Positions 16,170 through 63,000 of a stretch of DNA of 64,000 nt are shown here, one piece after another; position 1 is the stretch's first letter, and each line of letters opens with the position of its first letter. The stretch lies in contig BCKL01000015.1 of the NCBI GenBank assembly GCA_001600635.1, forward strand, positions 124,001-188,000. Direction: 5' to 3'. Both the position numbers and the translations under genes were made by a program. The DNA is from Leucosporidium creatinivorum. Its lineage: Eukaryota > Basidiomycota > Microbotryomycetes > Leucosporidiales > Leucosporidiaceae. The notes below the pieces were generated by a model. It did not search any database and was not told where the DNA came from. It worked only from the letters and a program-made list of their open reading frames with translations.

Positions 16170-17961
16170 CTAAAAATTGCGAAGCTCGTGCTCCTCCTGC
16201 TTTGTTCCTCGTCGATCCTGACGCCAGCGAGGGACAGCGCGAGTCAGCAATGGGACGAGCGGAATGAGGCGCAGTTAACTTACGGGCTGGTCAAAGTGGA
16301 TGGCAACGGGGTTGCGGTTCAGCGCGGCCACCTCCTGCTCCCACGGCTGGCGAGCACTCTCGACGTCGACCGAGATGTTCTGGGTGCGTCTGTGGGGGAG
16401 AGGAAAAAGAAGGGTCAGCTACAGAGCGTCGAGCTCGACTCAGAGACAGCTCACGAGACATGAACGTCGAGCTTGTCTCGAGCGCTCTTCGAGGCGGTAG
16501 GCTTCCAGTCTGAGACCTGGCCGACGGGGGTTGAGCCAGTGGTGAGCCCTCCTTCTCCAGATCCTTGACGGCGAGTGAGCGAGATGAGGAGGGAGTAGAC
16601 GTAGATGCTATCGGGACGAAACGAGTCAGTTTGAACTTTGAACGCCGAGCGCCGAGATTCGACGAGCCCAAACTTACGGCGAGACGAGGAAACCGGGAAG
16701 GGCGAACCAGAGTCCTGAGACGGTAGGTGTGAGTAGAAGAGGCGGCAGTTGAATCTGAACGAGCAAAGAAAGTGTGTTGGTCTGCACGGCGCGGAGGACG
16801 ATCTGTCTGAAGGCGTCGCCAGTTGTGGTGAACTTGGGAGTGCGGAAGATGAGGTAGTAGGTCAAAGAGACAGTGATGATGATGTCGGAGGCGCTGTGGG
16901 GTGTAGAGATGGGTGATGATGGCCGAGGTTGAGAGTGAAAGAGTGAATGGAGGTTTGAGTGAGGTTGAGAAGCCAAGGTTAGCACGCAACTAGGGCGATG
17001 AATACAGCCTTAGAGCCACTTACATGGCACTAGCGAACCACAAGTATGCGACAGGGCTGCAGTGGAAGGGCATAGTGAGCTGTTGAGCTTTCGGCGGTCG
17101 CGTCAACTTCGGCTTACAAGAGCTTGCCCAGTGTATCCATAGTATGCATGGTCCTGGAGAGGTTGGTGAGGTAGAGTACTGTTGCCCATCCAGTGAATGC
17201 CAAGACGGAGACAACAGCAGGGATGACCCAGGCTGAAGCGGGAAGATGGTCAGCGAGGCGGCTCGGCGCCGAATCGAGCTGGCAATCCAGGAATCTCACC
17301 AAAGCGCCCTCCAAAGCCTGCTGCAATCCTGTAAATTCTCCAGCCGTAAAATAGCTGAACAATCAAGGCCACTGTACCCTGTAGATGACAAGGTCTGCCT
17401 CAGCAAAGGCGTCGCCGAAGCTTGGAGGCGACCGAAGCTCGGGAAGCGCTCACCGACTGCCAGGGCAATTGTTTGAGCTGCCAAGGGACTGCACCAAGAG
17501 CAAGGGGGTTGGCAAAGTTGGTGACGACCCAGTTCCACACCCAAGAAGCGTTGATGCCCTGCACAAACCAGCCGCTAATTAGCTCCGAGTCGGCGCCGAG
17601 TGTTCAATTCCGGCGCCTGAGACTCACCGTCTCCAGGAGCAACAAGGTAGTCAGTACTCCTACAAGCGCTTTAAATACCCACTTGTCGTCTGGGAAGCGG
17701 CGCATGTAGTTGCCTCTGCGACGAGCAAGCAAGAAAGACATCAGTTGCTGCTCGGCCAACGTCGACTATGCGACGGTCAGACTCACACTTCAGAGAGCAC
17801 GATTCCCATGGTAAAGAACGAGATGAGAGTTGAAACGACCTGTGGCGAGAGCATAGGTCAGCTCGCTTCAACCTGCGCCGAGCGGGTCCACTTGCCAGCG
17901 CTCCAAGGGAGTTGCTAAAGTCGGGCAGCTGAGGGACCTGAGGGAGCTGAGTGGACGCCAT
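16170..17961 (-). CDS. DUF6534-type multi-pass membrane protein, copy A
   Basis: This belongs to a fungal family of polytopic membrane proteins of unknown function. Eleven exons (17961-17896, 17839-17787, 17715-17628, 17558-17454, 17378-17300, 17232-17118, 17056-17024, 16893-16678, 16607-16455, 16389-16284, 16217-16170) give 353 residues. About seven hydrophobic segments are visible. The DUF6534-like block is ASDIIITVSLTYYLIF, then TPKFTTTGDAFRQ and VQTNTLSLLVQIQLPPLL. The cytosolic tail ends EEHELRNF, shared with copy B. The first donor is GC (GCAAGT) where copy B has GTGAGT, giving a GC-AG intron. This copy looks intact; copy B has lost part of the region. Function, ligand and location are inferred only from hydrophobicity. 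Confidence 0.85.
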
Positions 17962-18887: not shown

Positions 18888-20719
18888 ATGGTCAAGAATC
18901 TCTACGCGCCCCGAGCAGACAAGAGGGATCGCAGGGACGACAGCACGAAAGCCAAGCAGGACAGCCTCGCGCAGAGACGCGAGGGGAGAGAACTCGAGGA
19001 CGGGCGAGCGTTGATCAAGTCGCTCGAGGAGAAGCTTCAGGCGGCGAGGGCTTGCAGAGGAGGGTCCACGGAGCAGGGGCGCTATTTGGAGACGTCTGGT
19101 GAGCTTCAGTTGGCGGAGCAGCACCTCAAGGACGAGCAAAAGAGGGTGAGCGGTTCGTGAATGAGCCGAGGCGGAGGAGAGCTGACGTTCGCACTGCAGG
19201 TCTCGCGCCTCGAAGCAGAGCTGAAAGAGCAAAAACGAGCTACTACCGCTGTAGAGGGATCGACCGCCGTCATCCCTTCCTTCGACGACCCTCAAGCCAC
19301 GACCGAACGCCTCGCCCAAGACGCTTCGCAGGCTCGAACGGCGGTCAAGCAGAAGGAGGAGGAGCTTCTGCAGCCCGCGCACAAGCTTAGAGTTCTACAG
19401 CTAGTGCTCGATTTCCTCACTAAGTCCTCCGCCGTCGAGGAGAAACCTGCCGAGCTCTACGTGCGCCGAGCCTCCTTTAGCCATCGCCGAACAGAGCACG
19501 CTGAACCTCTGCTCGCTCACAGCTATCTCCCGGAAGCAACATGTTCGACGCGGAAGGTGGCTCGGCCTCCTACCAATCTGACTTGAGCACCATCTGGGCC
19601 AAGGCGGGGCAAGCTCTCCCTGCGCCGATCTCCTTGGTTCGTAACGAAACTCACTCGTCAGCGATGAAGGCTGACACGATTGTCGGTCACTCTCAGAAAC
19701 GCACTATCATCAACATCAGCGGACCCGGAGACAAGCTCGAAACGCCCTTCTTACCTCCCGAGCCAACTTCCGCCTCCCTCACCGCCGAGTACCCTCATCC
19801 AGTCGCCTACCTTCGATCGCTCATGGGAGTGCGCGGCAAGTCGCTCTCAGGCACTTTGACTGCAGAGATGGAGCTCGTCCACCATGCTATTCTGCTGGCG
19901 ACGAAGATGCTCGAGCTGGATCTTGCCGAAGGCGAGCGATGGGCGGGTCGATTTCTCCAGGGAGACCAGTCTGCCACAGACAGCGTCACTATCGGGTACA
20001 TGGAGATTAGCTACCATGCTACGGGTGGAGGGAGGTATCTCTACTCTGTGTGAGTCCGAGTCTACTTCCACTAACTCCCGGGCGCCGAGCTTTGCAGTTC
20101 GGATGGCTGATGAGCTTGCTGATCTCCACAGGGACTTTCCCTTCCTGAAGATTGCTCTCGCAGCCTCTTTGATCTACGCTCGCCAGCTCGAGCTTCCGCT
20201 GCAGGCTGCGAGGCAAGTCTCGCCGTCTCGTCTCGGAAGGCAGCGCCGAGGCCGAAACTGATCCTTCTGTCATCACAGGCTCGCGGCTCATCAAGAATCG
20301 ATGGAGGCCTCGAAGGAGATCTTGGAGCAGCTCAACGGAGCTCGTGGAGTGCTCAAGCAGGCCGAGGACCGTTGCTTGAAGCTGAGGGAGGAACTGGCTT
20401 CGGCGAAGGGCAAGCTCTCTCGTCGTGCGCTCATCTCGCTTCAGCTCTCCTCGCCAGCTCTAGGAAGCTAAACCATTGGTTTCACACAGGCACTCCGGTT
20501 ACCTCCCCGCTTCAGACTCTCTCCTCTAACTCGACAGCGACGACAAGCTTCGCTCTCGGGAAACTGGCGTCGACGGCCAAGCAGCTCAACGAGACGATCT
20601 TGGCGCTACGCAAGAGCAACTGTGCGCTATGTCTCATCCCGTATACCGAAGAAGAGACGCTAACCCTGCTTCGGTTGATAGTAGAGCTGTGCATGCGCTT
20701 GACGGGCGGCGAGAAGTGA
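18888..20719 (+). CDS. MVK coiled-coil family, copy 2 (intact)
   Basis: Function unknown. Six exons (18888-19145, 19200-19460, 19523-20049, 20132-20212, 20279-20409, 20490-20719) give 495 residues. The N terminus is MVKNLYAPRADKRDRRD, then the family signature RREGRELEDGRALIKSLE and heptad-rich helix up to about residue 170. A globular middle domain follows (TIVGHSQKRT, PVAYLRSLMGV, ELDLAEGERWAGRFL), then a second coiled coil (EQLNGARGVLKQAEDR) and a helical end VELCMRLTGGEK. Introns 4 and 5 start with GC (20213, 20410); copy 3 has GT at both positions. By alignment with copy 3 a further 60 bp intron (20622-20681) may be removed, giving 475 residues; it is in frame, so both forms are readable. 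No homologue outside this window comes to mind. Confidence 0.8.
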
Positions 20720-21143: not shown

Positions 21144-22972
21144 TCAACTCCGCAGATTCTCCTTCTCCTTCCTCTCCCTGCTCCTCGAGCCGTCGCTCCT
21201 CGCCGTCTGCATCGTCGTTGTCGGACTGCCGGTGGACTGCGGTGTGAGGTGCTGTTGGTCGTGTACTGGTGTCGGGACGGGGATGGGCGTAGGCGCAGGA
21301 GGAGTGGATTCGGCGTTGGGTGGGGTAGGGCCGTTACGACGAGGTTTCGACCGGCGGGAGTTGGGATTTGGGGAGCCGGAGGGAGAATCGGAGGCGTGTG
21401 CGGGGGACGAGCCTGTGATTGTCGAGTCAGTAGCTGGAAGCGAAAGCAACGGCGATCTCGAATTCACCTTCGGCGTCACCCTTTCCACTCCGCCCCGGCA
21501 GCGTCTTACTCCTCTTGACCTTCCCATTCCCCCCATCCTGACTCTTCCTCAACCTCCTCCTCTCCACGCTCTTCTCACTCCCCCTCCTCGCCAAATCAGC
21601 ACCTCCAGCAGCAGCTTCCCTCCGCTCCAACTCAGCCGCCGGTCCCGCCATCCCCACCGCCCTCGCTCCCGATCCACTCGAGCTCCCTCCAGGACCACTC
21701 GCTCCATAGCCACTATCCTCCGTCGTCTCCCTCCCCTTGGAGCTCTTCAACGGCGGCTCCAAACCCAGCATAAAGTGCGCCTGCTGCTCAATCAAGAACT
21801 CCAGCACCTCCTTGCCCCTGCCATGCTCCCCTGCTCCTTCAGCCGCCCTCGCTCCAGCTCCACTACTCCTATTCGGCACTTGTCCCCCCACAAATCCAGG
21901 GAACCCAAGCAACGCTCCTTCCCCTCCTGAACCGCCCTTGCCTGTCCCTTCTCGGCGAGTAGAGACGAGTCCAGGTTGGAACACGACGGCGAGGTTGGAA
22001 GCGGTCATTAGGTTTGCGGAGGCCGAGCGGACAAAGACGGAGAGGAAGTCGAGGAGGTAGAGGAGGAGGTAGCGCGAGGAGGGGGGCAGGAGGGTGATGA
22101 GGTGCTGGTAGGCGGCTATTGCTTCGGCTTCGGGGAGGTTGCGTTCTGTTGTTGGATAACAAGGAGACGATTAGCAAGAGCGACCGAACGTAGAAGAGAC
22201 AACCACGGACGAAGGACGGCGGTGAAGTCGAGGTAGAGGTCGGCGGGAATGACGGGCTCCTGGAGACGTCCGAAAGGGAGGTCAGTGGGGTGCTGGAAAG
22301 CACGGAGATGAAGGTACACACCGGCATTTGGTTGAGATACCTCCTCAACACGCTAGCAGCATCATGCACGCTGTAGCCCGTCCAATCGAGGTCCTTGCCA
22401 TATCTCGGCGGTTCATCAAAGAGGGTCTGAAGCTGGTTGATGCGCTTGTTGGATCCTGATACACGGAAGATTCCCTCGGTTTGGGTGGCTGTATTGCAGA
22501 GAAGGTCAGTCTCACTGATGAGCGTGCGCGGAGACAAAGCGACAGAGCCATGAGACGCACCTGTCTCTTTGAGCATCATTCCGCATTTCGCGACGACGAT
22601 GGGGACGTAGCCGTAGACGTAGGGCTTGCCGTCACTATGAGAGCCAGCGTCGAGGATTAGTACGCGTTCTAACTCGCTACAAGAAGAGCGAGAGACGGGA
22701 GAGAGAGAGAAGCGAACGCACGGTCCGACCATGGAGATAGCCACTGAAGCATACTTCAAGCTCTGCTCTGGACTAACGCCAAACACTCTGCCTTCGCCGC
22801 TGCTGCCCTGCGGTAAGCCTCGGCCTGCAGGTTGATAGGGAGGGGGAGCCGGGCGCGGGTTGTTGGTGCTGGTCGAAGCTGTTGGCGATGAGGACGAGTG
22901 GGATTTGGTGAAAGCTTTCCACCACTTGAGTAGCGAGGCTTTGCTCGGAGGTGGAGCGTCGTAGCTCGACAT
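21144..22972 (-). CDS. RhoGAP protein, Sac7/Bag7 type
   Basis: This GTPase-activating protein is probably for Rho1-type GTPases, which control cell-wall synthesis and actin. Six exons (22972-22722, 22634-22561, 22488-22322, 22259-22211, 22145-21468, 21412-21144) give 495 residues. The RhoGAP domain spans about residues 65-240: FGVSPEQSLKYASVAISMV, YVPIVVAKCGMML, the arginine finger in EGIFRVSGSNKR, YGKDLDWTGYSVHDAAS and LRRYLNQMPEPVIP, then SNLAVVFQPGL. This wording is characteristic of the Sac7/Bag7 branch. The C-terminal half is Gly/Ser/Pro-rich and basic, presumably disordered. The fourth donor is GTCCGT. The substrate GTPase is inferred from the family. Confidence 0.9.
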
Positions 22973-23478
22973 GCTCCTGCTGTAGCTCGATACGAGAGCA
23001 GCGAGCGAGCGAGAGTCGACAGGAGGAGTGAGCGCGGAGGGAGAGGGAGGTGCGAGAGGACGAGGGATTGGTGAGCTGTAGGGAGATACGAGTGAGCACT
23101 ATTCTGTAAGACACCATACCCTGTGCTACTACTCACCTAGCTGTAACGAAGTAGAACCGAGAGAATCGCAGGAGACGAAGCTGTTGTTCGCGACGGCCGA
23201 CTCTTTGTGCGGAGCTCGCTCCTTTCGAGTTCGTCGCAAAGCTCGTTTCTGGATCTTTCTGCTGGTTCCCGATTTGACTGCTGCAGCGCGACCACCTCAG
23301 CAGAACAAGGTACAGACTCGACCCGCTATCTCGGGACGTCATCCAAGTCGACCTCTCGTCGGCGGTTCTGTAAAGCAACTGGCCACGACTGAGGTGCTGC
23401 CCGTGGACAGATCTGAATACACGGTATCGAGCTACAACAACATTTCTCTGCACAAGCCGACCTCGGTCCCCTCGGAAC
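22973..23478. other. Intergenic, no gene seen
   Basis: This lies between the RhoGAP start and the transporter 3' end. Short open frames on both strands lack coding character. Likely RhoGAP promoter and leader. Confidence 0.4.
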
Positions 23479-26404
23479 TCAATCCATCACGGTCCTCACT
23501 CCGCCGAACTCGGCTAAAGTGTAGGGAAACTGGTCGTCCATCGAACTGACGAAGCAGCGAGAGATGGGGATATCGAGCCTTGAAGTGAAGGCGTTGACGA
23601 GAGAGGGTGAGAAGGCGCCTTGGAGGAGGATGAGGTCCTGCGAGGGGAGTTCGGGGAGAATTAATGAAGGAACGAGAGCAAGGAGGAAGGCGGGAGAGGT
23701 GATGAGACGTACGACGGTGATGGAAGGGAACACCTCGTCAAGGACTGTGGGCGAGAGGGCGGGGGAGATCAGCTGAAAAGTCTTCGCCAGCTATCGCCGA
23801 AGCCAGAAAGTGGGAGCCTACTCTTGCAGCTGTAGACGCCGGATCAGGATCGAGAGTCAGCAGAGTTCGTACATCGCTTGAGAGAGCCCTGCGATACTCA
23901 CTTGGGCTCCAACTCGCTCGGGATGTCCTCGGTCTGGCGGTAGCAGTGCACGACCTTGACGCAAGCCGTCTCTTCGTTGTTGCGGACATACGTGAGGAGC
24001 TCAAAGAGCTTGTGAATCTGCGGTGGTCGTTCGAAACGGTCAGCTTTTAGCCTAGATGGTCACGACCAACCTCGCCGAAGTCAAGGCTCGACCTCTCGGC
24101 GCCCCCTCAAGCTAGACTCACCTCATCAGTCGCGACAAACAGCACCACCGGCCCGCCCTTCATGCTCTTCATCCATCTCACGACCCTCTGACTCCAACCC
24201 CCTCTCTTCATCCACCCGACCCTCTCGGACACCTCAATCCCAACTTTCATCGCCCGACTCCTCTTACTCAGTCCGACCATTAACAGCCCCATGACCAACA
24301 CATAGGCCGCCAAGTACCCAGCGATGATCGGGGACATGACTATGTTGCCGATGATGAGAGTCAGGGAGAGGACGAGGACGAGGAGGGAGAGGGAGAGGGA
24401 TGTTCGGGGCGCGCGGGGAAGGGAGGGGCGTGAGAAGGAGAGGAGGAGGAGCGAGATGGGGAGGAGGAGCATGGTCGAGAGGAACACGATGGCGAAGCTT
24501 TGGTAATGTCACGGAGTCATTAGCTGCTGATTCGAGGGAAGGCAAGCATAGCCGAGAAACTCACATGCTCGACATGATCGTCAGACTGGCTCCTGTAGTA
24601 CCGTAGATGGCGAGAGAGATGGCGGCAAACAGCGCGAGAGAGACGTAGGGCGCGCCTGTCCATCGCATGCGGCGCAGGAAGATGGAGGGGAGGATGCCAT
24701 CGCCGGCGAGACGACCGATGAGCGCGTCGGCACTGACGGCTCCTGAGAGTAGTAGAAGAGTCAGCTCGAGTCCTCTCACTAGCACTAGCTGAGATTGGCT
24801 CACCAGTGAGGATCGTAGCCGAGAGGATCAGCACCGCGTCGACCGAGACCCAAATCCTCAACCACCCTCCCGCCGCCTGCTGCGCCACGCTACTCAGCAC
24901 GCTCGAGTTCCCCAGCACGTCCTTCATGGGTAGCACAGCGAAAGTGACGAGCATGAGTGGGGCATTGGTGACGACAGCGAAGGACTGGAGCGAGCGGAGC
25001 ACCGAGGGGTAGACGCCGGGGCGAACGGAAGAGATGTAGTCGGGGGCGGTTTCGAATCTGTAGGGCCATGAAGATCAGCGACAAGGCTCAGTTGACCAAG
25101 AAAGAACTCGACTCACCCAGTCACGCCGAGAAAGCCAACGCAAACGCCGAGGAAGATCTGCTTGACGATCCCGCCTGCGCTGCCGGGCTGCGAGGTCGTC
25201 CAGTTCTCGCGCAGAACCGCATTTCCTACTTGGCCCCAGTGAATGGCACCGGCGATGAAGATCATGGCGAAAGTGAGAAGGTGCTATTCGGCGAGAAGGG
25301 TTAGCTCGCTCGCTTTCTTCGCACGAGGATAAGGGAACGACTCACGAAGACGAGGATAGCAGTCATCACCTCCGCGTTTCCCTTGATTCCAGCGAGGCCG
25401 AAGAGCACAATCCCGACGATGAGGATGATGGTGAGGGCGACGTCGATTCGCAAGCCTGCCTCGGTGGCGACATAGGCTGCTGCTGTGCCAGCCGAGACGA
25501 CCGAGGTAGCAACATCGTCGAGAAGAGTGAGAGCAGCCCCGAAAATGGCGACGTCTTTGATGGCTGAGGCGTTGAGGCTGTGAGGTACAGCAGGTCAGTG
25601 AGCGAGCCGAGAGGTTCAGCGAGAGGCGAACGCACAGGTAGGAGTAGTTGGCACCGTCGATGCTGATGGCTGTGGCGAGTTCTTCCATGATCGGTCGCCA
25701 TAACGAGAGCATAAGAGTCGCAATGAGGAGGGAGATGGGCGAGCTGTGAGAGCGACGAGGTCAGCGCTCGCTCGGCTGGAGCGGGCGGGAGCAACTCACT
25801 AGATCCCTGCGACTCCGACGAGAGCCGGGAAAGCATACAACGGTGAACCAGCTACCGCAACTCCCGCTACACCAGCCGCTCGCCTGTAATCGAACAAGTC
25901 AGCCGCTGCTGCCTCATCGCCGAGCCCGAGTCAACTCACCAGCTTCCCAACGCTCCCTCACCCGCATTCTTCCTCTCTTCATCCTTCTTCTTCTTAGCCT
26001 CCCGCACTTCCTCCTCTGACACCTCAGCGAAAGACATCGTGCCCCAGCCAGCGAAGTCCCACTCGTGCACCGTCCTCGGCGGGTAGCTCTGCTCCTCTTC
26101 ATCGCCGGCTGTTGATGTGGAATCGGCGGTAGTGGTGCGGTAGAGTCGGTGCGGAATCTTGAGCGCGTTGTGGATGCCTGTGAGGGTAAGGGGGTCAGCC
26201 TCGGCGAAGGGGGCTTGGATCGGCGGCGACAATTTTACGCTGACGGCGAATGACGGTCTCGTACTGCGATTGTGCGTAGCTCGGTGTACGACCACCTCGA
26301 TTTGAGACGCCAGTAGAAATGGGAAGCGAGCGGATCGTATCGTTGTCGCGAGCGACTCCGGCGCCGGAGGTCTTGCTCTCCTCCTTGTTCTTGTCTGAAG
26401 GCAT
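23479..26404 (-). CDS. APC-superfamily amino-acid permease-like transporter
   Basis: Thirteen exons (26404-26239, 26177-25940, 25883-25800, 25743-25636, 25577-25346, 25283-25117, 25057-24804, 24742-24565, 24497-24122, 24017-23902, 23829-23822, 23744-23713, 23637-23479) give 705 residues. The first 130 or so residues are soluble, with WDFAGWGTMSF before the membrane part. About twelve membrane segments follow. The family-typical AISIDGANYSYLLN and GFLGVTGFETAPDYI are visible, as in AA_permease_2-type carriers. A C-terminal soluble domain of roughly 150 residues (VVLFVATDE, CYRQTEDIPSEL, LDEVFPSITVDLILLQGAF) ends the protein. The eleventh exon is only 8 nt. The substrate is unknown. Confidence 0.85.
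23822..23829 (-). other. 8-nt microexon of the transporter gene
   Basis: The microexon CTGCAAGA is flanked by CTACAG and GTAGGC. It joins the neighbouring exons in frame to give EPNCKILDEVFP; skipping it shifts the frame. Both flanking introns have branch-like motifs (CTGCTGACTC, CAGCTGATC). Confidence 0.8.
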
Positions 26405-35183: not shown

Positions 35184-36375
35184 CTAGACCAGTCGGATCC
35201 TCCGCTCGTTGCAGAATGTCTCGAACGCCTTGCACTCGGGCGAGCTGTAAAGCGAGAAGTCGAAAGGAGGGCCAAACGGGAGGAGGGAGATGGCTTTGAG
35301 GCTGCGAGATCCGCTGTGTCCACGTCGTAAGAAGAGCTCGGGGTTTTTCAGGACTCCCGGCGCAATGGATAGCCTCAGAAGCTGCGGCGAAGTTGATGCG
35401 AGCAGGGAGAGGGCTTCGTCAGGCGAAGTCGCTCCTTCGGGATATGCTGGTGGGGCGATATCGAGCGCCTTGATGGAAGCCCCGACATCAAGTTGAGGGA
35501 TGCTAGCCAGGGCAGCGTAGCTCGAGTCGGCGGAGATGATCTCGAGCGACGAGCCAAACGAGGAGAGAAGGGTGCTNCATCGTTCGGTCGAGNTTGGTAC
35601 ATGCCGGCTTNGATAGACTGACNGAGCNGATCGTCCTTTNTAGGCNGGNGCGCGCTGNCCNTGCNNNGNAGGCTCTGCNNGCGTTAGGCCAAGAGCGCGA
35701 ACGTTGGGGAAGAGGCCGAGAGGGTGGTCGAGGAACGGGGAGGAGAGGCCGACGATGCTGCAAGCGTGCAGACCGACGTGTTGGACGGAAGGGAAGACAT
35801 CGTTGTCGCCTCGATGATTGACTCGGAAGGTGGTGTGCTCGACGATGAGGGTTTCGAGATGGGCTGTTCGGCGGTGATGGAGCGGTCAGCGATACTCGCG
35901 GCGCAGGGACGTGCGAATACTCACCCTTGCATAGAGGCTGATCAGGCAGGCGTAGTTCATCGATCCAGCTCAGCTTCAGCTTCCTTACGTCCAAGCATCG
36001 GCTCGTAAGTTGCCCGAGCGAGCGCGCCGAGATCCGCTGCGTCGGTCCACCGCTGACGCTCAGCTCGACGATCCAGCTAGCAAGCTGCTTTCCGCTTGCT
36101 CCTTTTCCGAGAACCGATACGAGACTTTGCACCTGTCGGCTTCCTTCGACGGCGACCGAACGGACCAGCTCTCGTTGAGCTACGTCCCTCCAGCTTCGAG
36201 CGATGAGTGAGGCCGAGGTGAGGATCTGTAGGCGTTCGGTGTACAGCTGGTCGGTCGGAGTGGCCAGCTTGACAATCCGGTGTACGAGCTCGGGAGGGAG
36301 GGAAGGAGTTGGCCGAGGAGAGGCGGCGGCTGGGCTGCCTTTGACCGGCGAGGCAGCAGCTGGCGAGGTGAGCAT
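35184..36375 (-). CDS. F-box protein, type B copy 2 (interrupted by ambiguous bases)
   Basis: The first exon (36375 to about 35931) encodes MLTSPAAASPVKGSPAAA and the F-box LPPELVHRIVKLATPTDQ, YTERLQILTSASL, ARSWRDVAQRELVR. The second exon starts after CGAACAG near 35865 and continues the leucine-rich part (AHLETLIVEHTTF, FPNVRALGLT). A patch with many Ns (35577-35680) makes about 35 codons unreadable. The frame then resumes and ends ETFCNERRIRLV at TAG 35184. The layout matches type B copy 1, including the split after the PLCK/VKHR position. A small upstream coding exon like that of copy 1 was not found. Divergent partner: the F-box gene at 37062. Confidence 0.75.
35577..35680. other. Cluster of ambiguous bases
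   Basis: Roughly twenty N calls are scattered over about 100 bp inside an F-box gene. Scattered Ns rather than a solid gap suggest collapsed alleles or paralogues. Confidence 0.9.
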
Positions 36376-38554: not shown

Positions 38555-40375
38555 TTAAGCTCCCTCCCCGCCCGAGAGACGCGACAAGAGCTCCACTGCG
38601 ATGGAAAGGAGCGCAGAGATCAGCTCGCGCTCGAGAACAGGGTCGAACAGAACTCACAGTTCTCCTTGCGCAAAGTCAAGCTCGCTTGATTGAGCTCCTT
38701 CGCCGTAGCTGCCAGACGACCAAGCACGAACTCCGATCGAGTCGGCCTGTCGGAGCAGGACGTCGATGCGCTGGGTCGAGGACTCGGACCAGGCTCTGTG
38801 TACGCGAATCGTGGATCAGCTTCTTCCTTGAGGGATCGGCTCGGCTCAAGCGCTAGGAGCAGCCAACTCACTCCGAAGCAGCTCGGCTCGAGACGCTTCA
38901 ATCTCCTTCTCGAGCTTCTGCGTGCGATCCTCGAGCGAGGTGAAGGCGCTTCGAGCACGGGATAAATCCTCTTGAGCCTTCTCGAGCTCGCGGGCTGAGT
39001 GAGTCTCAGCCGCTCGTCTGAAGAACAAGGGGAAGCCACAAGCGGTCACTGGTCAGCTCGGAGATCGTTTGGCTCGGCTCCAGCGACGACAAACGCACCG
39101 TAGTACCTCCAGAGCGTGATTCAATTGCTTAGCAGAGAGGAGGGAAGCGGCGAGGGCAGCCGTCGACAGCTTGAGCTTGCTGCACAAGCGAGCCGAGTCA
39201 GCCGTGATGAACGCCGATGGAGGACAAAGACTCACACGGCGATTCGAGTCTTTACAGGCGGCGTCTTCTCCTGATAGTAAAGCAACACGGTCCTCGAAGT
39301 CTCTTCTTCGTTCCCGGCGAGGTAGGGCGCCGCCCAGAGCTTGGCGCGAGAGGGGTCCTCCGCTTCGATACGTACGGCGAGCAGCTGAGCCGCCTCGATG
39401 GGTTCCAAGACGAGCGCCGCACGCGGAGGAGCGATGTCTCCCTCCAATCCAGCGAATCGACGTAGAAAGGCGATGGCGGCAGGCGTGTTCCCGGCGATGG
39501 GCTCAGGCTCGGCGAGAGCGGGCGAGGTGTGGGGAGCGTGCTCGGGAGTAGGAGGGTAGAGACCGGGAACGGGAGGTCCTGGGGACAGCTCCTGTTTCGC
39601 CGAGGAACGTAAGCCTGTCATTCGACTGTCAGACTGTGCAGTAGACTGACCAACGCTGGTTCGACGGCCACCCGCGAGCCGCGACGAGGAGTGAGAGGAT
39701 AGCCTCCGGGCGGCAGCGTAGCATTCTCCTCAGTTACCAATGTAGAGGTTGGAGTCGAGGGAGACATTCGAGTCTATTGGATCGCCTTGTTAGTCCGAGC
39801 CTGAAATCAGCGCACCTCGGTCGAAGCTTGAAGCGCCGGGAGCGGCTCTTTGACGAATGCGATGATCTCCTGCAGTAGATGTACCTGCTGGTTCGACTTG
39901 GCGAGCTGCAGGTGCTTCTCATTCAGCTGAGCTTTGGCCTCGGCCGCGTCCTGCTGAGCGCGCTGAGCGATTGCCAAAGCCTCCTCATCGCGGGGAGCAC
40001 TTGATGCAGCATCCTCAGCGGTCGATGATGCTCGTCTGCTGTCCTCAAGCTCTGCTTGGAGGCGCGAGACCTACAGGCCAGACCGTCAGCTCTCCTCCGC
40101 CTTGTTCACGAGTCGCTCACCTTCTTCTGCTCGTCTTTGAGCTGCTGCTCGGCCTGTTGAAGCTCGATTGAAGCTATCACATATGTATCTTGCTGCGTTG
40201 CTCCTCCGCTCGCCCTGGTCGCTTGCAGCTTCTGTTCCAGCGCCTTGATCACCGCTCGCCCGTCCTCGACCTCCCGCTTCTCCCGCCGGAGGGTGAGGTT
40301 GTCGCCTTTGTTTCGTTCGCTCTTGTCGCGAGTGTCCTTAGCATCCGCGCGGACTGTGTAAGCCGGCTTGACCAT
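38555..40375 (-). CDS. MVK coiled-coil family, copy 3 (intact)
   Basis: Function unknown. Eight exons (40375-40121, 40070-39816, 39773-39651, 39591-39236, 39179-39099, 39017-38872, 38795-38658, 38595-38555) give 464 residues, all junctions GT-AG. MVKPAYTVRADAKDTRD opens the protein, then RREKREVEDGRAVIKALEQ, a long heptad region, a Pro-rich insert (SPGPPVPGLYPPTPEH), the middle domain (AAIAFLRRFAGLEGD, EAAQLLAVRIEAE), a second coiled coil (ARELEKAQEDLSRA), and the end LELLSRLSGGEGA. The 81-nt fifth exon has exactly the same length and phase as its copy 2 counterpart. It forms the inner edge of the inverted duplication with the 15-21 kb module. Confidence 0.8.
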
Positions 40376-43865: not shown

Positions 43866-45320
43866 ATGGCTGCTCCACCTATGCCAGACTTCAGCAACAC
43901 GATTGGAGCGCTGGTGAGTCTCCCTCTGCGCAGAGTCGAACGCCGAGCTAACCGTTTCTCCCTTTCGCAGGTCGTTTGCCGTTACCAACTTTGCCAATCC
44001 CGCTGCTCTCGCCATCATCCCTTGGCAGATGAAACAGCTGCCTTCGCAATCGGTAGGTCGCTTCCATCGCCGAGCTTCGGCGACGCCTCTGCTGAACCAT
44101 CTGGCCTCACAGGGCTCGGTTGCCTTCGCGGTACAGTGCTTTTTCCTATGGCGCATTTGGAGGATTGCTTCAGGGTTTGGGGACCGGTTTTGTAAGGGCT
44201 CAGGTGGACCCCCCGCCGAGCGGTCGGCTGACTCTTTCCCGTTTCAGCTTGGGCTATGCCCTTGGTCATCTTCGTACTGTCGCTCACCGGATGGGCAACT
44301 GTAATCTGGGTTGGCCAATTTGCATTCACCCTCACGACGATGGATGAGTTGACGAAGATTTTGTGAGTCGCCGCCGCCGAGCAGCGCCGAGAGCTCTCCC
44401 CGCTGACGCCCATGCCTCCGCAGCCCAATCGGATACCTGTGGTTCGCCAGCGTCATGTAAGAGCTCCATCTTTCATTCAAGTGTCGCCGTAGATCGCTGA
44501 CTGAGCGTACTCGACACTTCGGACCCCCTCCCCTTGCCCCAATCACGGCTTCTTCCTCCGTCTCTCCTTCCTTCTGGCCTTTTACTGCCCTCCGTAGTCT
44601 CTCCGACATCCTAATCACGGTCTCTTTGACCTACTACCTCATCTTCCGCACCCCCAAATTCACCTCGACGCGCGACGCCTTCAAGCAGATCGTCTTCCGT
44701 GCCGTACAGACCAACACGCTCTCGTTGATCTTCCAGGTCCAGATCCCGCCTCTCCTTCTCACCGGCGCAGGGTCGGGCATCTGGTTCTGTCTCCCTGGCT
44801 TCCTCATCTCGCCGTGAGTTGTGATTCTCGGCGCTCGGCGCTCGTAAGCTGACTCGTTTTGCCTCAATAGCATCTACCTCTACTCCCTCATCATCTCGCT
44901 CACTCACCGCAAGGGGATGGGAGAAGGATTGGCTACCGGTTCGACTCCCATCGGCAACACCTCGGACTGGAGGCCCTCCGCTGCGAAGACGAGCGGTCGG
45001 GACCAGGTCGGCGTTCACATCTCGTGAGCTCCTCGAGCTGCTTGAGGCTTTGAGGGAGCGATAGCTGACTCTTTTGTCTCTTTTTGCGGTTGCAGGCGTA
45101 CTCAGAACGTCACCGTCGATGTTGAGAGCGCTCGTCAGCCGTGGGAGGAGGAGGTCGTCTCGCCGAGCCGCAACCCCGTCGCCATTCACTTTGATCAGCC
45201 GGTGAGTAGGCTCGCGCTTCGAGGCGCGTTGCTCTCTTTTTCTTGCGCTGACGTCTGCTGTAGCAGTCACACAACCGTCGAGGAGCCAAGGAGGAAGAGC
45301 ACGAGCTTCGAAACTTTTAG
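43866..45320 (+). pseudogene. DUF6534-type membrane protein, copy B, internally deleted
   Basis: This is a paralogue of the gene at 16170-17961, in inverted orientation. Exon pieces are 43866-43913, 43971-44052, 44113-44191, 44248-44362, 44424-44456, 44598-44813, 44871-45023, 45096-45201 and 45264-45320. From the third piece onward, exon lengths are identical to copy A apart from the last, and all splice sites are kept. The second piece fuses the start of copy A exon 2 (GTCGTTT) to the middle of its exon 4 (VTNFANPAALA). The rest of exons 2-4 is gone, and 82 nt replace 246, leaving everything downstream out of frame with the start. A shorter product could begin at the ATG in WQMKQLP. Called a pseudogene on this basis. 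Confidence 0.65.
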
Positions 45321-46505: not shown

Positions 46506-48842
46506 ATGTCGGATCCTACGACCCAAGTGCTGCCTTCCATCGACCACTTGATCCGCAAGAGCGTCAAGCGCACTCACACCTTGTTCTCCGCCGAGGAAGC
46601 TTTCCGTGGTGTAGATGATACAGACAGGGCGTACGTTCTGTCTCTCTTTGCCCTCTGCTGCCTCCAAGCCACTCTGTAGCCTTACAGCCAGAGCACAGGA
46701 GCAGCAAACACTCCCGCCCTCGCTCTCGAGCTGCTCGCTAACTCCGCGATGAATTGTACAGGAGCAAGCTACGCCTAGCAGCCAAGATCAACGCCGAGTA
46801 TGGTAACGCCAAGACGCTCCCTGCCGCTCTTGTAGCACAGCAGAAGGGCGGAGCTGGTCCTGCTCGACCAGGACCTCAGGCGCCCGCTGGACCAGGACGG
46901 AAGATGATTGAAGGTGAGCTGTCGCGCTGTCCAACTCTGTAGGACTACATCTCACCCATCACTGCTCTACAGGTCCCCAATCAGCGCAAGCCAAAGCCGT
47001 AGACGACCACCTCTCCTCCTCCTCCGCCCTCACGCTCAATCAACCCGCCTCGCACGCTACTCCCACCCTTCTCTCCCAATCCCTCATTCGTCGCCGAGAA
47101 GCTCGTCAAGTCAAGCCGGATTATCATGCGCAGTGGAAGTTGATGAGGGTCATTAGTGGGCATCTTGGGTGGGTGAGGGCGGTGGCCGTTGAGCCGGGGA
47201 ACAAGTGGTTTGCGACGGGTGCGGGAGATAGGGTTGTCAAGGTGTGTACTAGTCCTCGCTCGGTCTCTGACCCTGCTCTGCCGCTGGAGGAGCGCCGAGT
47301 AGGGCGGGGCGGATTCACAAGACGCGGCTCGCTGACCTCCCCTCGCTCGTTCATCAGATCTGGGACATGGCTTCAGGCGAGCTTAAGCTCTCGCTCACGG
47401 GACACATCTCCACCGTCCGAGGTCTCGCCGTCTCCTCAAGGCATCCCTACCTCTTCTCTTGCGCCGAGGATAAGGTGCGTTCTTGCTCCCGCCTCGCTCG
47501 CTCTGCGCTTGCTAATGCTTCAATATGCGGAACAGATGGTCAAGTGCTGGGATCTCGAGACGAACAAGGTCATCAGGCATTACCATGGTCACCTTTCGGG
47601 TGTTTACTCGCTCGCGTGAGTTGCTCTTTCGCCGATCCTTGCTTCTACTGCGCCGCGCTGACTGTGCTCTCCCTCTTCCTCCTTCCCCTCATCCACTGAT
47701 GCGATCCGACGACGCAGCCTCCACCCCACCCTCGACGTCCTCGTCACCGCTGGTCGTGATGCTTCGGCTAGGGTGAGTTTCGAGTCTCGGCGCTCGTCTT
47801 GGGTGAAGCTCGGAAGGATCGGGAACGCTCGCTGACGGATCTTCCTACACCCTCCTCACCTCGCTCGCTCTCGCCTTCGCGATCACTCCACCTCACCTGG
47901 CCTCGCTCCTCGCCCCTCTCCTTCCTCACTCCTCAACGTCCTCCCACCTGCATTCGCCACCTCCGCTCGCTTCTACATCTCCCTTCTCCCGCCTCGAACG
48001 CTCTTCCTCGACTCTCGTAGGTCTGGGACATGCGCACCAAAGCCCAAGTGCACATTCTCGCCGGCCACACGGGCACCATCTCGGACGTGCAGTGCCAGGA
48101 GAGCGACCCACAGGTCATCACCGGTAGTATGGATTCGACTGTTCGGTGAGTCTTGTGCTCCTTCTGCTCGTCTCGCCCGACGTGGTCGACGAGGAGATGC
48201 GCCGAGAGAGCGCCGAGAACTAACCCCATCCCCCACCTCCAGCCTCTGGGACCTCGCAGCAGGCAAGACGATGACCACCCTAACACACCACCACAAGTCG
48301 GTCCGATCGCTCACCATCCACCCTACCGAGTACTCGTTCGCCTCGGGATCATCGGGAGGCAACAACATCAAGAAGTGGGCCTGCCCGCAGGGAACCTTCG
48401 TGCACAACTTCTCGGGACATGATGCGATCATCAATACCGTCAGGGTCAATCAGGATGGTGTGCTGTTCAGTGGAGGTGCGTACTCTCGTCTCTAGCGCCT
48501 ATTTGCCCCCCCTCGGCACCGAAAACTGACCAAAACTCGCCTCTGTACCCTCTTCCACGGCCTCTAAACCCCTCCAGCCGACAATGGCTCAATTACTTGG
48601 TGGGACTGGAAGACCGGGTTGCCCTTCCAGACGATGCAGGACATTCCCCAGCCTGGATCGCTCGACGCCGAGGCAGGCATTTTCTGCTCTACCTTCGATC
48701 AGACGGGGACGAGGCTGATTACTGGTGGAGCGGACAAGACCATCAAAGTGGGTTCTCTCGCTGCTTTGTCTCGGAGAGGAGATGCAAGGTCGAGGGAGCT
48801 GACTATCCTCTCGGCGAACAGGTCTACGCCGAGGTGGCATGA
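46506..48842 (+). CDS. PRP46: Pre-mRNA-splicing factor PRP46 (PLRG1), WD40 protein
   Basis: This is a core component of the Prp19/NineTeen complex in the spliceosome. Ten exons (46506-46630, 46762-46913, 46973-47241, 47358-47474, 47536-47615, 47718-47772, 48021-48145, 48243-48475, 48578-48747, 48822-48842) give 448 residues. The N-terminal 120 residues are poorly ordered (Gly/Pro/Ala-rich). The WD40 propeller starts at [20 protein letters not shown] and shows the family wording: [99 protein letters not shown]. The final exon encodes only VYAEVA. A single-copy orthologue; identity is secure. Confidence 0.96.
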
Positions 48843-53549: not shown

Positions 53550-54761
53550 ATGGCCGAATCTACCACCAAGCAACACAAGCTTCATGTCATCGGCGCGGGA
53601 CTGCCTAGGACTGGCACTGACACCCTTCGCAAGGTGAGCCAGCGAAAACGTACGAGAAACGCCAGGAAGGACGGCTGATGATGATTTGCACGAGCAGGCG
53701 CTCAACATCCTGGAGCTCGGACCTACGTACCATGTAGGTGATCGCTGGCTCGCTTATTCCCACACACGCCAGACTAACCCTGCTTTCCCTCTCCGCAGAT
53801 GTGAGCTCGGCGCAGGCCTCTAACGGAAAGACGCTCAATCTCGCTACTACAGGTTCGAAATGTTCGCCGGAGGTATCGAGCACCCGAAGCGCTGGTACAA
53901 GGCTCTCAAGGAGATCGACCGCGCGGACCAAGCGGGCGAAACGCCAAACGTCAACTTCGCCGAGCTCTTCCCAGGGTTCCATTCGGCCGTGGACGCCCCC
54001 GCTTCCGACTGCTACATCGAGCTCTCCAAGGCGTACCCCGAGTCTAAAGTCGTGCTCACTGTCCGTGACCCCGTCAAGTGGATGGAGAGCTCCAAGGCGA
54101 CGATCCTGCGCTGCCACGACTGGTTCTACGGGTTCTGCGTATACTGGGTTCCCATCTGTTGGATGCAGAGGAGGATGTGGTTGGAGTGCAGCATCCCTCT
54201 CTACAATCGCAAGTATGGAGGCTACTGCGAGGCCGCTCTGGTAAGTCTCGGCGCTTGAAAGAGGCAGCTCGGCGCTTCAAGCTGACGTTGTCGCTGCGTC
54301 TACAGCCCTTGAGGATCGTCGAGGCGAAAGCCAAGTGAGGGCAAAAACTTCTAAGGCTTCTCCGTGTACCTCGCTAACCTCTTCATTGCTCAACAGCATT
54401 CCCGCCGACCGCCTCCTCATCTTCCGAGTTCAAGAAGGGTGGGAGCCTCTCTGCAAGGTATCTCGGCTCCCAATCCTTCGTTCGCGCAAAGCTGAATGCC
54501 ATCGCTTCTGCTCAATAGTTCCTCAACGTGCCCATCCCCAACGTGCCCTTCCCAAATGGCAATGCGACGGACGAGATCAACGCCTTCATCGCGGACAAAG
54601 TTCGCACGGTACGTTCTCACCTCCAGTGCATCACAAGAAGACGAACGCTGACTTGAATCTCCCTGTAGGGCATGATCCGCTGGGCTGGAGTCCTCGCCGG
54701 CCTCGTCGCCGCCGTCGCCGTCGGAGTCTCGCAGGCTGAGAGCATCGACAAGCTTCTCTAA
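53550..54761 (+). CDS. Sulfotransferase-fold P-loop protein (Sulfotransfer_4 type)
   Basis: Eight exons (53550-53633, 53698-53733, 53799-53800, 53853-54240, 54306-54334, 54397-54457, 54519-54608, 54669-54761) give 260 residues. The 5'-phosphosulfate-type loop is GAGLPRTGTDTLRKAL and the second nucleotide motif LTVRDPVKWMES; AELFPGFHSAVDAPAS and RLLIFRVQEGWEPLCKFL are typical of this fungal family. A hydrophobic C-terminal segment (AGVLAGLVAAVAVGV) suggests a tail anchor. The third exon is just two nucleotides (AT) between canonical acceptor CGCAG and donor GTGAGC. Only with it does the conserved YHMFEM and everything downstream stay in frame. Whether the protein transfers sulfate is not established for the family. 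Confidence 0.88.
53799..53800 (+). other. 2-nt microexon (AT)
   Basis: This lies between TCTCCGCAG and GTGAGCTCGG. The upstream exon ends ...TAC CAT and the downstream exon starts G TTC GAA; AT plus G makes Met. Without it the next exon is frameshifted, and no alternative AG supplies two bases. Confidence 0.75.
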
Positions 54762-60037: not shown

Positions 60038-63000
60038 ACCATGTGCGGTATCCTCGTCCAGATGTTACCGGAGTTACCTTCATCTTCTAATTTACGTCTA
60101 CAGCTCGCTCCGTCGTGCCATCTCGGCCGTGGGAGCGCTCGTGGCTTCGTCACTCGTCGGCGGTTCACGCTACACCGAGACACATTGCTAACCCTGCTGC
60201 GTCCACTTTCTCAAGGCTCAGAGCAGGCATGATCAGACAGACTCCCCTCCATGCACTCCCTGTAGCTTTACCTCCGTCTCCGGCTCCTAGCAGCAGCCTG
60301 TCCTGTCACTCAGCCCTTGCCGATTAGGCTGGCGCCTGATGAGCCTCATCCCCCTCCCCCAGCAAGCAGTACACCATCAGATGCACTACCTTCAGTAGCC
60401 TGGTATCGGCGTACGCCGGCTCAAGAACCTTGGGAGACAGCAGCCATCGGCCAGCCTGTCACGGCGTTCATCTCGCCGCCCCGTCTCGCCCCTTTCGGGC
60501 TTCACTAGCTCGGTGTGCTGCAGCTTACCGGTGTACAAGCTATACTGTACTGGTGCTTCCTAGCCGAGCACGTCCGAAAGCTCAGGAAATTCAGCGGCGT
60601 GAGAAGGTCAGCTTTCGGTTCTCGGCGCTGGAGTCAACATGGTACAAAACCTGCAAGATTCGGCCTCTGTACTTGTATCGTACCGGTTTACCCCGCAATG
60701 TTACGCATACAGCTCAGTACAGGTACATCGTGTATCTGTATCGGCCGGAACGGGCTGAAGAAGGGAGAAAAGGTCGCGAGGTCAACGCCGAGCTGGCAAA
60801 TTATCACATGTTGTGCTACATGCAGGCAGCGAGAAGTCGTGTAGTAAGTTAAGCGCAGCAAAAGGATGAACTTCTGACAAAATGTACATGTCAATACAAG
60901 TTTTCTGGCGAGAAAAGCCGGCGCCGAAGGATAACGAGTGAACTTCGAAGCGAATTGAACCCGCCTCGAGAGCTTTGAATGTGCAGAGATAGACTGAAAA
61001 TAACCACTCAACTACTTGGCCATCGATTGAGAGCTCTCGAGCTGTTTGAGGACCAAGTCGAGCTTCGTAGACCACTCGCCGAGCGCCGAGCTGGCTACTT
61101 TCGACACTCGGTACACGCCTGACGGATCCGAGGAGCTGTGATTGTACTGTCAGGCTCAAGATAGGGGCTGTATTTTCCGCAGTAAGTTACGGTACAGTCC
61201 GGCCTTGTACTTGTACCATGTTGAGTCCAGCTCGGCGATGAGTCGGGCCCGCCGGATCCCCTCCTCCTTCTGCGCCCTCAGCCCAAGCGTAAGCAAATCC
61301 CGATGGAAGCAACAGGCTATGATGGCGTGGTTGGGGACTCTCGGGAGTCATCAGCCTGCCCGCCTCGCCGTGCAAAGCGTCGATTCGGACACTCGCTGAG
61401 CGGCTGGTGGCTCGGCGAAGGCAGACCTCGTCCCTCGCCTTCCCAAACCCCATAGCTCTCGAGGCTCATCCTGGCAGACGGCTTGACTTGAATGCTCTGG
61501 CGTAGCGGGCGCCGAGGAGGGGACGGCGGGCGGTGACAGAGAAAGGGACTTGCCTTCACGTGATCATCCGAGCGCCGAGCTCGTCGATGAGAGACGTCTG
61601 CAGGCGAGAAGGGAGGTCAGCTTCGGCTCTTCGAGCAGCGGTGAGTGTGCTGTAGCATGCTCGTACGGCTCCTCGGATGTCCACTCCCTCATAGCCTCGC
61701 CTTCCTGCACCTCAAGCGCTCCCTCACCACTTCGCCCTCCGCTGCGACGCCTCCCTCTAGCTTCAGACCCGAGATAGAGGAAATCTACTCACCTGCAAAG
61801 TACCCCATTTACTAGAGAACCACCTACGAAGCAAAAGCAACTCGAAAGCTGCATAGGAAGACTCGTAGCGCGCCTCCCGTCGACGCTTGAAGGGGNTGAG
61901 GAGCACTTGCTCGCGGCTCCTCGTTGCGAAGGCGTGCTGTGTNAGCAGCAGCCTGAGGGTCTCCACCACTAGGATGGCGCGGGGTCGGTTGGGAAGTCTT
62001 TAGCGGTCTTCTCATCGCTAAGGAGGAGTAAATGGCAGCGAGCTCCTCCGGCGCTGTATCGCAGTCGAGCCGCTCAGAGAGCAGCAGCGAGCTGTTGGGA
62101 GGCTTAAGCGGTCGTCCCAGGGTCGTGAGTGAGATACTCCCAAAGCCCCCGGAGGGAGGAGCACTGCTTCTGCGACCCTTCGCTGAGAGAGGTTGGAGGT
62201 CGACGAGCACTTCACGCGAGGAAGAGTCGGGCCTTGATCCAGTGGCAGAGCCCTTTCCAGAAGGCCTACACAGCAAGAACGAGAGCACCACGCGAGGGTG
62301 CTGCACGCAACGACTTACTCCAGAAGGATGTGGTGAGAGAGAAAGAGACAAAAGAGGTCAAGNGAGCCGTTTTGGAATCTCGGCGCTTGGACCTCTTCGC
62401 CAAGCTCGCTAGTCTTCCCATTGCTGCTGGGGTGCAGCTGGCATTCGGATATGCTCGAGAGCACTCAGCACATCTCTGGCTACCTCTCTGAAACCTGCCC
62501 CGACTTCCCGGTCCCAAGTCAGCTTTCTAAGGCTCGCCGAATCGAGATGACTCGGAGGGGCGTCTCCCGCTCCCTGCTGGGCGGAAGTTGTACAGGGAGA
62601 CTCTCCGACGGGCGCCAGCGGATGAGAGCAAGTAATAGAGTGAAGATCAAGAGACAGCTACGCAGTTCTGGCCAAGTCCTTCCACCGCCGGCCACCGCCG
62701 GTCGGCTCTCCGTCCGCCTGCTTCCTCGACCTCGGCTCTCGCCTCCAGTCGCCTCCGAGTCTCCTGGTCCAAAGTGTGCGCTACAGCAAGGGTGATCCTT
62801 ACGGTTACGCTGCTCAACGGCATCCTGAGAGCCTCACTGGGCTATTTCGACCTCTCAGACCGCCCACCTGCTTCTCGCCTCGTTCCGAAGGAGCTCGGCG
62901 AAGTCAGCGTCGCCTCACAGCTCTCAGTAACGGCTCGCGAGGACCTGACCGGGCCTTGAGAGTAGATATGTAGCATTATGAGTGCATTCGAACTTAACCA

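Follow-up and report, generated by a model that had tools for sequence, protein, structure and literature searches.

The question raised by this locus is whether two letters, AT, lying between two complete short introns, form an exon in their own right, or whether a more conventional reading of the same interval suffices. The window, as the term is used here, is the whole stretch of DNA that was analysed (64,000 nucleotides, GC content 59%). Together with the short introns, this GC content suggests a red yeast from the Rhodotorula group. The two-nucleotide interpretation, a prediction from sequence, was supported: a gene of the PF17784 family very probably carries a constitutive two-nucleotide exon, the splicing of its RNA being deduced from the genomic letters.

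Gene structure and protein family

Direct reading of positions 53550-54761 of the window, plus strand, gave an eight-exon gene with seven introns (Table 1), and splicing of all seven introns produced a 783-nt reading frame of 260 codons plus stop. The sequence-only reading had proposed 65-nt and 52-nt GT-AG introns with just AT between them and 260 in-frame codons when AT is included; its coordinates were correct and exact to the base, and its codon count was reproduced by splicing (783 nt including the stop). Both introns flanking AT are complete, each having a donor, a branch point, and an acceptor. The interval that contains AT spans 119 nt, about twice the length of the remaining five introns of the gene (60-65 nt). 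The assembled letters around the end of exon 2 (within 53720-53740) include CATGTAGG, and splicing through the AT exon predicts CATATGTTC in the joined transcript, where CAT-AT-G is read as Tyr-His-Met. When position 53733 was joined straight to 53853, skipping AT, the frame shifted and a stop was reached after 104 residues, which bears out the earlier claim that the frame is lost without AT. Inclusion of AT looks constitutive because skipping breaks the frame.

Table 1. Exons of the predicted gene and the first three of its introns, with positions given in the window.
Feature	Position	Strand	Description
Exon 1	53550..53633	+	84 nt; ATG to ...CGCAAG; encodes the P-loop-like IGAGLPRTGT; also predicted by the self-trained gene finder
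Intron 1	53634..53697	+	64 nt
Exon 2	53698..53733	+	36 nt; ALNILELGPTYH; ends TACCAT, phase 0
Intron 2	53734..53798	+	65 nt; GTAGGT...GACTAAC...CTCCGCAG
Exon 3 (predicted)	53799..53800	+	Two nucleotides, AT; bases 1-2 of the Met codon in YHM
Intron 3	53801..53852	+	52 nt; GTGAGC...CTCTAAC...CTACTACAG
Exon 4	53853..54240	+	388 nt; starts G|TTC GAA ATG; GTTCGAAATG from 53853
Exon 5	54306..54334	+	29 nt; also predicted by the gene finder
Exon 6	54397..54457	+	61 nt; also predicted by the gene finder
Exon 7	54519..54608	+	90 nt; also predicted by the gene finder
Exon 8	54669..54761	+	93 nt including the stop codon; hydrophobic C-terminal segment (by eye); also predicted by the gene finder

The product matched the Pfam profile PF17784 (Sulfotransfer_4) with 186.4 bits against a curated cut-off of 22.8, residues 13-219 corresponding to profile positions 2-214 of 215. 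On this match the gene, earlier described as a sulfotransferase-fold gene, is predicted to encode a PF17784-family protein with putative sulfotransferase activity. Solved relatives include SgdX2 (8y9p, E 4.6e-33); other chains are named sulfotransferase, and some are named oxamniquine resistance protein, which we take to be schistosome enzymes. A search of viral contigs for relatives of the gene found none.

The Met codon begun by the AT exon sits in the segment GPTYHMFEM, and conservation of this segment was assessed in bacterial relatives, which were used as intronless length markers. The best 80 of 568 confirmed loci (from 595 candidate stretches) were fetched, and 78 of these were aligned, two (L013 and L043) having been dropped by a motif filter. 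The search patterns for these relatives did not contain YHM, yet the ranking query did. With the relatives so chosen, the His of YHM was kept in all 78 aligned sequences and the Met in 77, as would be expected from the earlier remark that YHMFEM is family-consistent, and the columns of GPTYHMFEMF were free of gaps throughout, the junction included. Outside the alignment, L013 and L043 likewise show HM.

The completeness of the product also bears on whether the locus is a pseudogene or a mis-modelled gene without productive splicing, for which there appears to be little room. The AT-exon gene model is itself a prediction, which leaves space for such a reading; against it, all exons join in frame and give a 260-residue protein that spans almost the entire profile.

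Gene prediction and chance expectation

For prediction without homology, a small gene finder that models codons, splice sites, branch points, and intron lengths was used, with the window itself as its training set (23 genes, 151 introns). It was seeded with a general donor, branch-point, and acceptor consensus, and the near-invariant G that it assigns to donor position +5 partly reflects this seed. After retraining without the present gene (144 introns), the identical eight exons were returned. Forbidding individual sites then gave the cost of each: 10.6 nats for donor 53801, upon which a 126-nt intron at 53727-53852 was picked; 9.9 nats for acceptor 53798, upon which an intron at 53801-53872 was picked; and just 5.1 nats for donor 53734, upon which the parse dropped exon 2 and retained the AT exon. 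The splice sites of introns 2 and 3 are ordinary, not strong. Relative to the 144 predicted introns of other genes, the donor of intron 2 lay at the 19th percentile and its acceptor plus branch point at the 20th, and the corresponding values for intron 3 were the 49th and 38th percentiles.

Short exons carry no penalty in the gene finder, and 6 of the 128 internal exons that it called, the AT exon included, were at most 8 nt long (lengths 7, 8, 3, 2, 5, and 0). Margins of at most 4.3 nats were obtained for four of the five others. The AT exon, with a margin of 10.4 nats (9.9-10.6 in the retrained finder), and an 8-nt exon at 23829-23822 (13.9-17.7 nats) stand apart. One of the four with low margins, a 3-nt exon called at 43971-43973, had a margin of 1.7 nats and was contradicted by a paralogue. 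The gene finder alone is not proof, given this false 3-nt exon and a probable gene fusion at 21144-26404.

Several other places in the window were recorded in the course of this work. The 8-nt exon on the minus strand (23822-23829, CTGCAAGA) lies between 72- and 77-nt introns and may be a further genuine microexon; the gene that contains it resembles, by eye, an amino-acid permease. The predicted 1325-residue gene at 21144-26404 (minus strand) has by eye a transporter-like and a RhoGAP-like part and probably consists of two genes fused by the gene finder. Paralogous membrane-protein genes are found at 16170-17961 (minus strand) and 43866-45320 (plus strand), the second of which, when scanned, matched PF20152 (DUF6534); set side by side, the two point to a false call of the 3-nt exon at 43971-43973 and to an N-terminal stretch that may be missing from the 43866 copy. 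Two further predicted proteins, at 18888-20719 (plus strand) and 38555-40375 (minus strand), resemble each other, measure about 460 residues, and form an apparent paralogue pair by eye, and their introns at 19146 and 40120 are 80% similar over 45 nt. Two adjacent predictions with WD40-like repeats at 46506-48842 (plus strand) may belong to a single gene that the gene finder divided; Pfam was run on the first of these predictions.

Chance expectation was estimated by shuffling. The first 6 and the last 8 bases of the interval were kept, and the interior was shuffled with dinucleotides preserved for 20,000 rounds; the score comprised the acceptor plus branch point of intron 2, the donor of intron 3, and both lengths, with the branch point of intron 3 left unscored. 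Any AG-NN-GT at an allowed place was found in 396 of the 20,000 shuffles, and a 2-nt exon scoring at least as high as that observed was found in none. When exon lengths of 0-6 were pooled, two shuffle hits reached the observed score, one of length 0 and one of length 5. Both strands of the window were also scanned for exons of 0-6 nt flanked by introns of 45-110 nt whose sites scored well, and this place alone was returned, with thresholds that were taken from the observed scores and are therefore post hoc.

These counts also weigh on an assembly or base error, by which exon 2 would in truth close with CATAT, followed by a single intron of about 119 nt. The last two letters of exon 2 are AT and GT comes directly after them, so that an original ATAT could have been shortened by one AT, and 19 scattered N elsewhere in the assembled window (16 at 35577-35680 and 3 at 61896-62363) suggest a draft assembly in those places. 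There is no N near the gene, however, and under such an error the acceptor, the letters AT, a good donor, and normally spaced branch points would all be coincidence, a combination that arose in 0 of 20,000 shuffles. An error of this kind is judged to be very improbable.

Enumeration of alternative splicings

All splicings with 0, 1, or 2 introns in the region 53698-53930 were enumerated using GT or GC donors, AG acceptors, and a length of at least 30 nt, with the other introns fixed. This yielded 744 in-frame open splicings that encode 666 distinct proteins. In-frame single-intron alternatives with other splice sites thus do exist, and none of them yields [YFH]HM; a single one of the 666 proteins, that of the AT-exon model, carries this motif within its first 70 residues. 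Splicings were scored by donor, branch point, acceptor, length, and a per-intron cost, using the retrained model from which this gene had been left out. Among all 744, the AT model ranked first with 2.3 nats against -3.4 for the next, despite paying for two introns, and it ranked first on the joint splice and profile score as well (141.1 versus 128.0 nats), where the runner-up was the same AT exon with different outer sites.

When scored by the bacterial profile only, the AT model came second of the 666 proteins with 200.3 bits. The top score, 201.0 bits, belonged to a splicing that uses a 31-nt GC-AG intron and lacks YHM, the scores just below were 198.9, 197.6, and 197.5 bits, and the best single-intron model reached 194.6 bits. 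With rivals this close, the whole-protein profile score is a weak judge, and motif and splice scores were therefore used alongside it. On the Pfam profile, the AT model was the best of seven scored, six rival proteins falling 9 to 146 bits below it: its 186.4 bits compare with 177.4, 171.3, 171.1, 167.3, and 166.8 bits for five in-frame single-intron rivals and with 40.9 bits for the frame in which AT is skipped.

One of these rivals is the 126-nt intron that uses a donor within exon 2 (TAC|GTACCA, 53727) and the acceptor at 53852, giving GPTFEM without YHM. It is in frame and open and was the choice of the gene finder once donor 53801 was forbidden. Its donor, at -3.64, is weaker than that of any of the 144 catalogued introns, although weakness at the donor is not in itself enough to exclude a rival, since the gene also appears to use a weak one at 54458 (-0.31, 1st percentile). 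Its remaining properties argue against it more broadly: a splice score of -8.3 nats against 2.3 for the AT model, the loss of a His kept in 78 of 78 aligned relatives, 171.3 against 186.4 Pfam bits, and twice the usual length. Taken together, they leave this intron with hardly any credibility.

Other single introns with one weak site, such as 53801-53872, GC donor 53748 to 53852, GC donor 53744 to 53872, 53734-53880, and 53738-53830, are equally implausible: they are in frame and open, with bacterial-profile scores of up to 194.6 bits, and 53801-53872 was picked by the gene finder once acceptor 53798 was forbidden, but all of them lack [YFH]HM and lose the Met of YHM, the best single-intron splice score is -3.4 against 2.3 nats, acceptor 53830 lies at the 1st percentile, four introns of these kinds (53738-53830, 53752-53901, 53734-53880, and 53744-53872) give 166.8 to 177.4 Pfam bits against 186.4, and residues are deleted or inserted at a place where the family is free of gaps.

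Origin, order of splicing, and comparison with known tiny exons

With the two-nucleotide exon as the preferred reading, several origins and related arrangements were considered. It is conceivable, although on balance unlikely, that the AT exon began as a cryptic exon whose capture made good the loss of two bases: CATAT|GT in an ancestor would have lost one AT, and AG-AT-GT within what was then a single intron of about 119 nt would have replaced it, turning one intron into two. If this were true, skipping would give a decay-prone transcript, and inclusion could also tune expression. Introns 2 and 3 showed no similarity to each other up to E 0.5, and their best matches among the other introns of the window, which was the extent of the search, were weak (E 0.05-0.24). 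Within the window, these comparisons gave no convincing sign of an origin by intron duplication or from introners. Insertion with a target-site duplication (ATGT at both ends of the 65-nt intron, by eye) was dropped, as the ancestor without the insert would be out of frame. A stwintron was rejected because both introns have intact splice signals before splicing and AT is needed in the product, and a zero-length recursive exon was rejected because two bases lie between the acceptor and the donor and the frame depends on them.

In fungi with short introns, the sites of a 52-65-nt intron are expected to be paired across the intron. The introns of this gene are of that size, so intron definition is the expected mode, and introns 2 and 3 would each be recognised as a unit. 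The earlier suggestion that so short an exon challenges exon definition is for this reason weaker than it was put, and the near-fused acceptor and donor on which it was built are a real constraint. With 2 nt between them, these sites would be difficult to occupy simultaneously, so removal of the two introns would be stepwise. Of the two, the 52-nt intron downstream would probably be removed first; its higher site scores (donor 6.03 versus 4.13 and acceptor 6.34 versus 4.50 for intron 2) suggest this order without showing it. Were intron 2 removed first, the second donor would score 6.55 instead of 6.03 in its new context, so the opposite order is also possible. Direct joining of the outer sites would give a frameshifted transcript open to nonsense-mediated decay.

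The AT exon would rank among the smallest exons known, but exons of its kind have already been published for plants and Fusarium. Its size itself is not new, since exons of 2-5 bp are known in Arabidopsis, Drosophila, and humans, according to the introduction of PMC12940212. A search of the library for a two-nucleotide exon found no paper on one, and no two-base exon of a fungus stood among the matches listed; a search for microexons together with Rhodotorula gave no mention of a microexon among the matches listed. Tiny exons readily escape annotation pipelines and read aligners, as PMC12940212 and PMC8831610 note, and an annotation that overlooks this two-base exon could misstate the protein at a motif that hardly varies. 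With 119 nt, two short introns, and clear wrong products, the present case is compact and makes a convenient substrate for asking which of two near-abutting introns is removed first and what minimum exon size the spliceosome can handle.

Among paired introns and microexons of fungi, stwintrons (PMC5639578) are alike in being adjacent introns that need consecutive reactions; they differ in that the internal intron splits an outer splice signal, whereas here both introns are complete and AT is kept. The Trichoderma Xlr2 microexon (PMC11121469) is also fungal; its alternative inclusion switches isoforms, whereas inclusion of the AT exon looks constitutive. In plants, a 1-nt exon has been described in Arabidopsis APC11 (PMC4674806) and 1-nt exons in APC11 and VPS55 across plants (PMC8831610), which like the AT exon are ultra-small, not a multiple of three, and needed for the right protein. 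For its 1-nt exon, PMC4674806 proposes intron definition with stepwise removal, and it refers to earlier work on a 9-nt exon of potato invertase in which the second intron was removed first.

In Fusarium, CYP621A P450 genes are described in PMC12940212 as having a 1-nt exon that occurs in 20 Fusarium orthologues and is supported by RNA reads. Both the plant and the Fusarium exons measure one base instead of two, and the gene family in Fusarium is unrelated; the plant exons were shown by reporter constructs, RT-PCR, or RNA-seq and the Fusarium exon is backed by RNA and its 20 orthologues, whereas the AT exon is predicted from sequence. CYP621A is likewise fungal, and the same argument was made for it, from the reading frame, an intronless relative, a conserved motif, and a doubled intron length.
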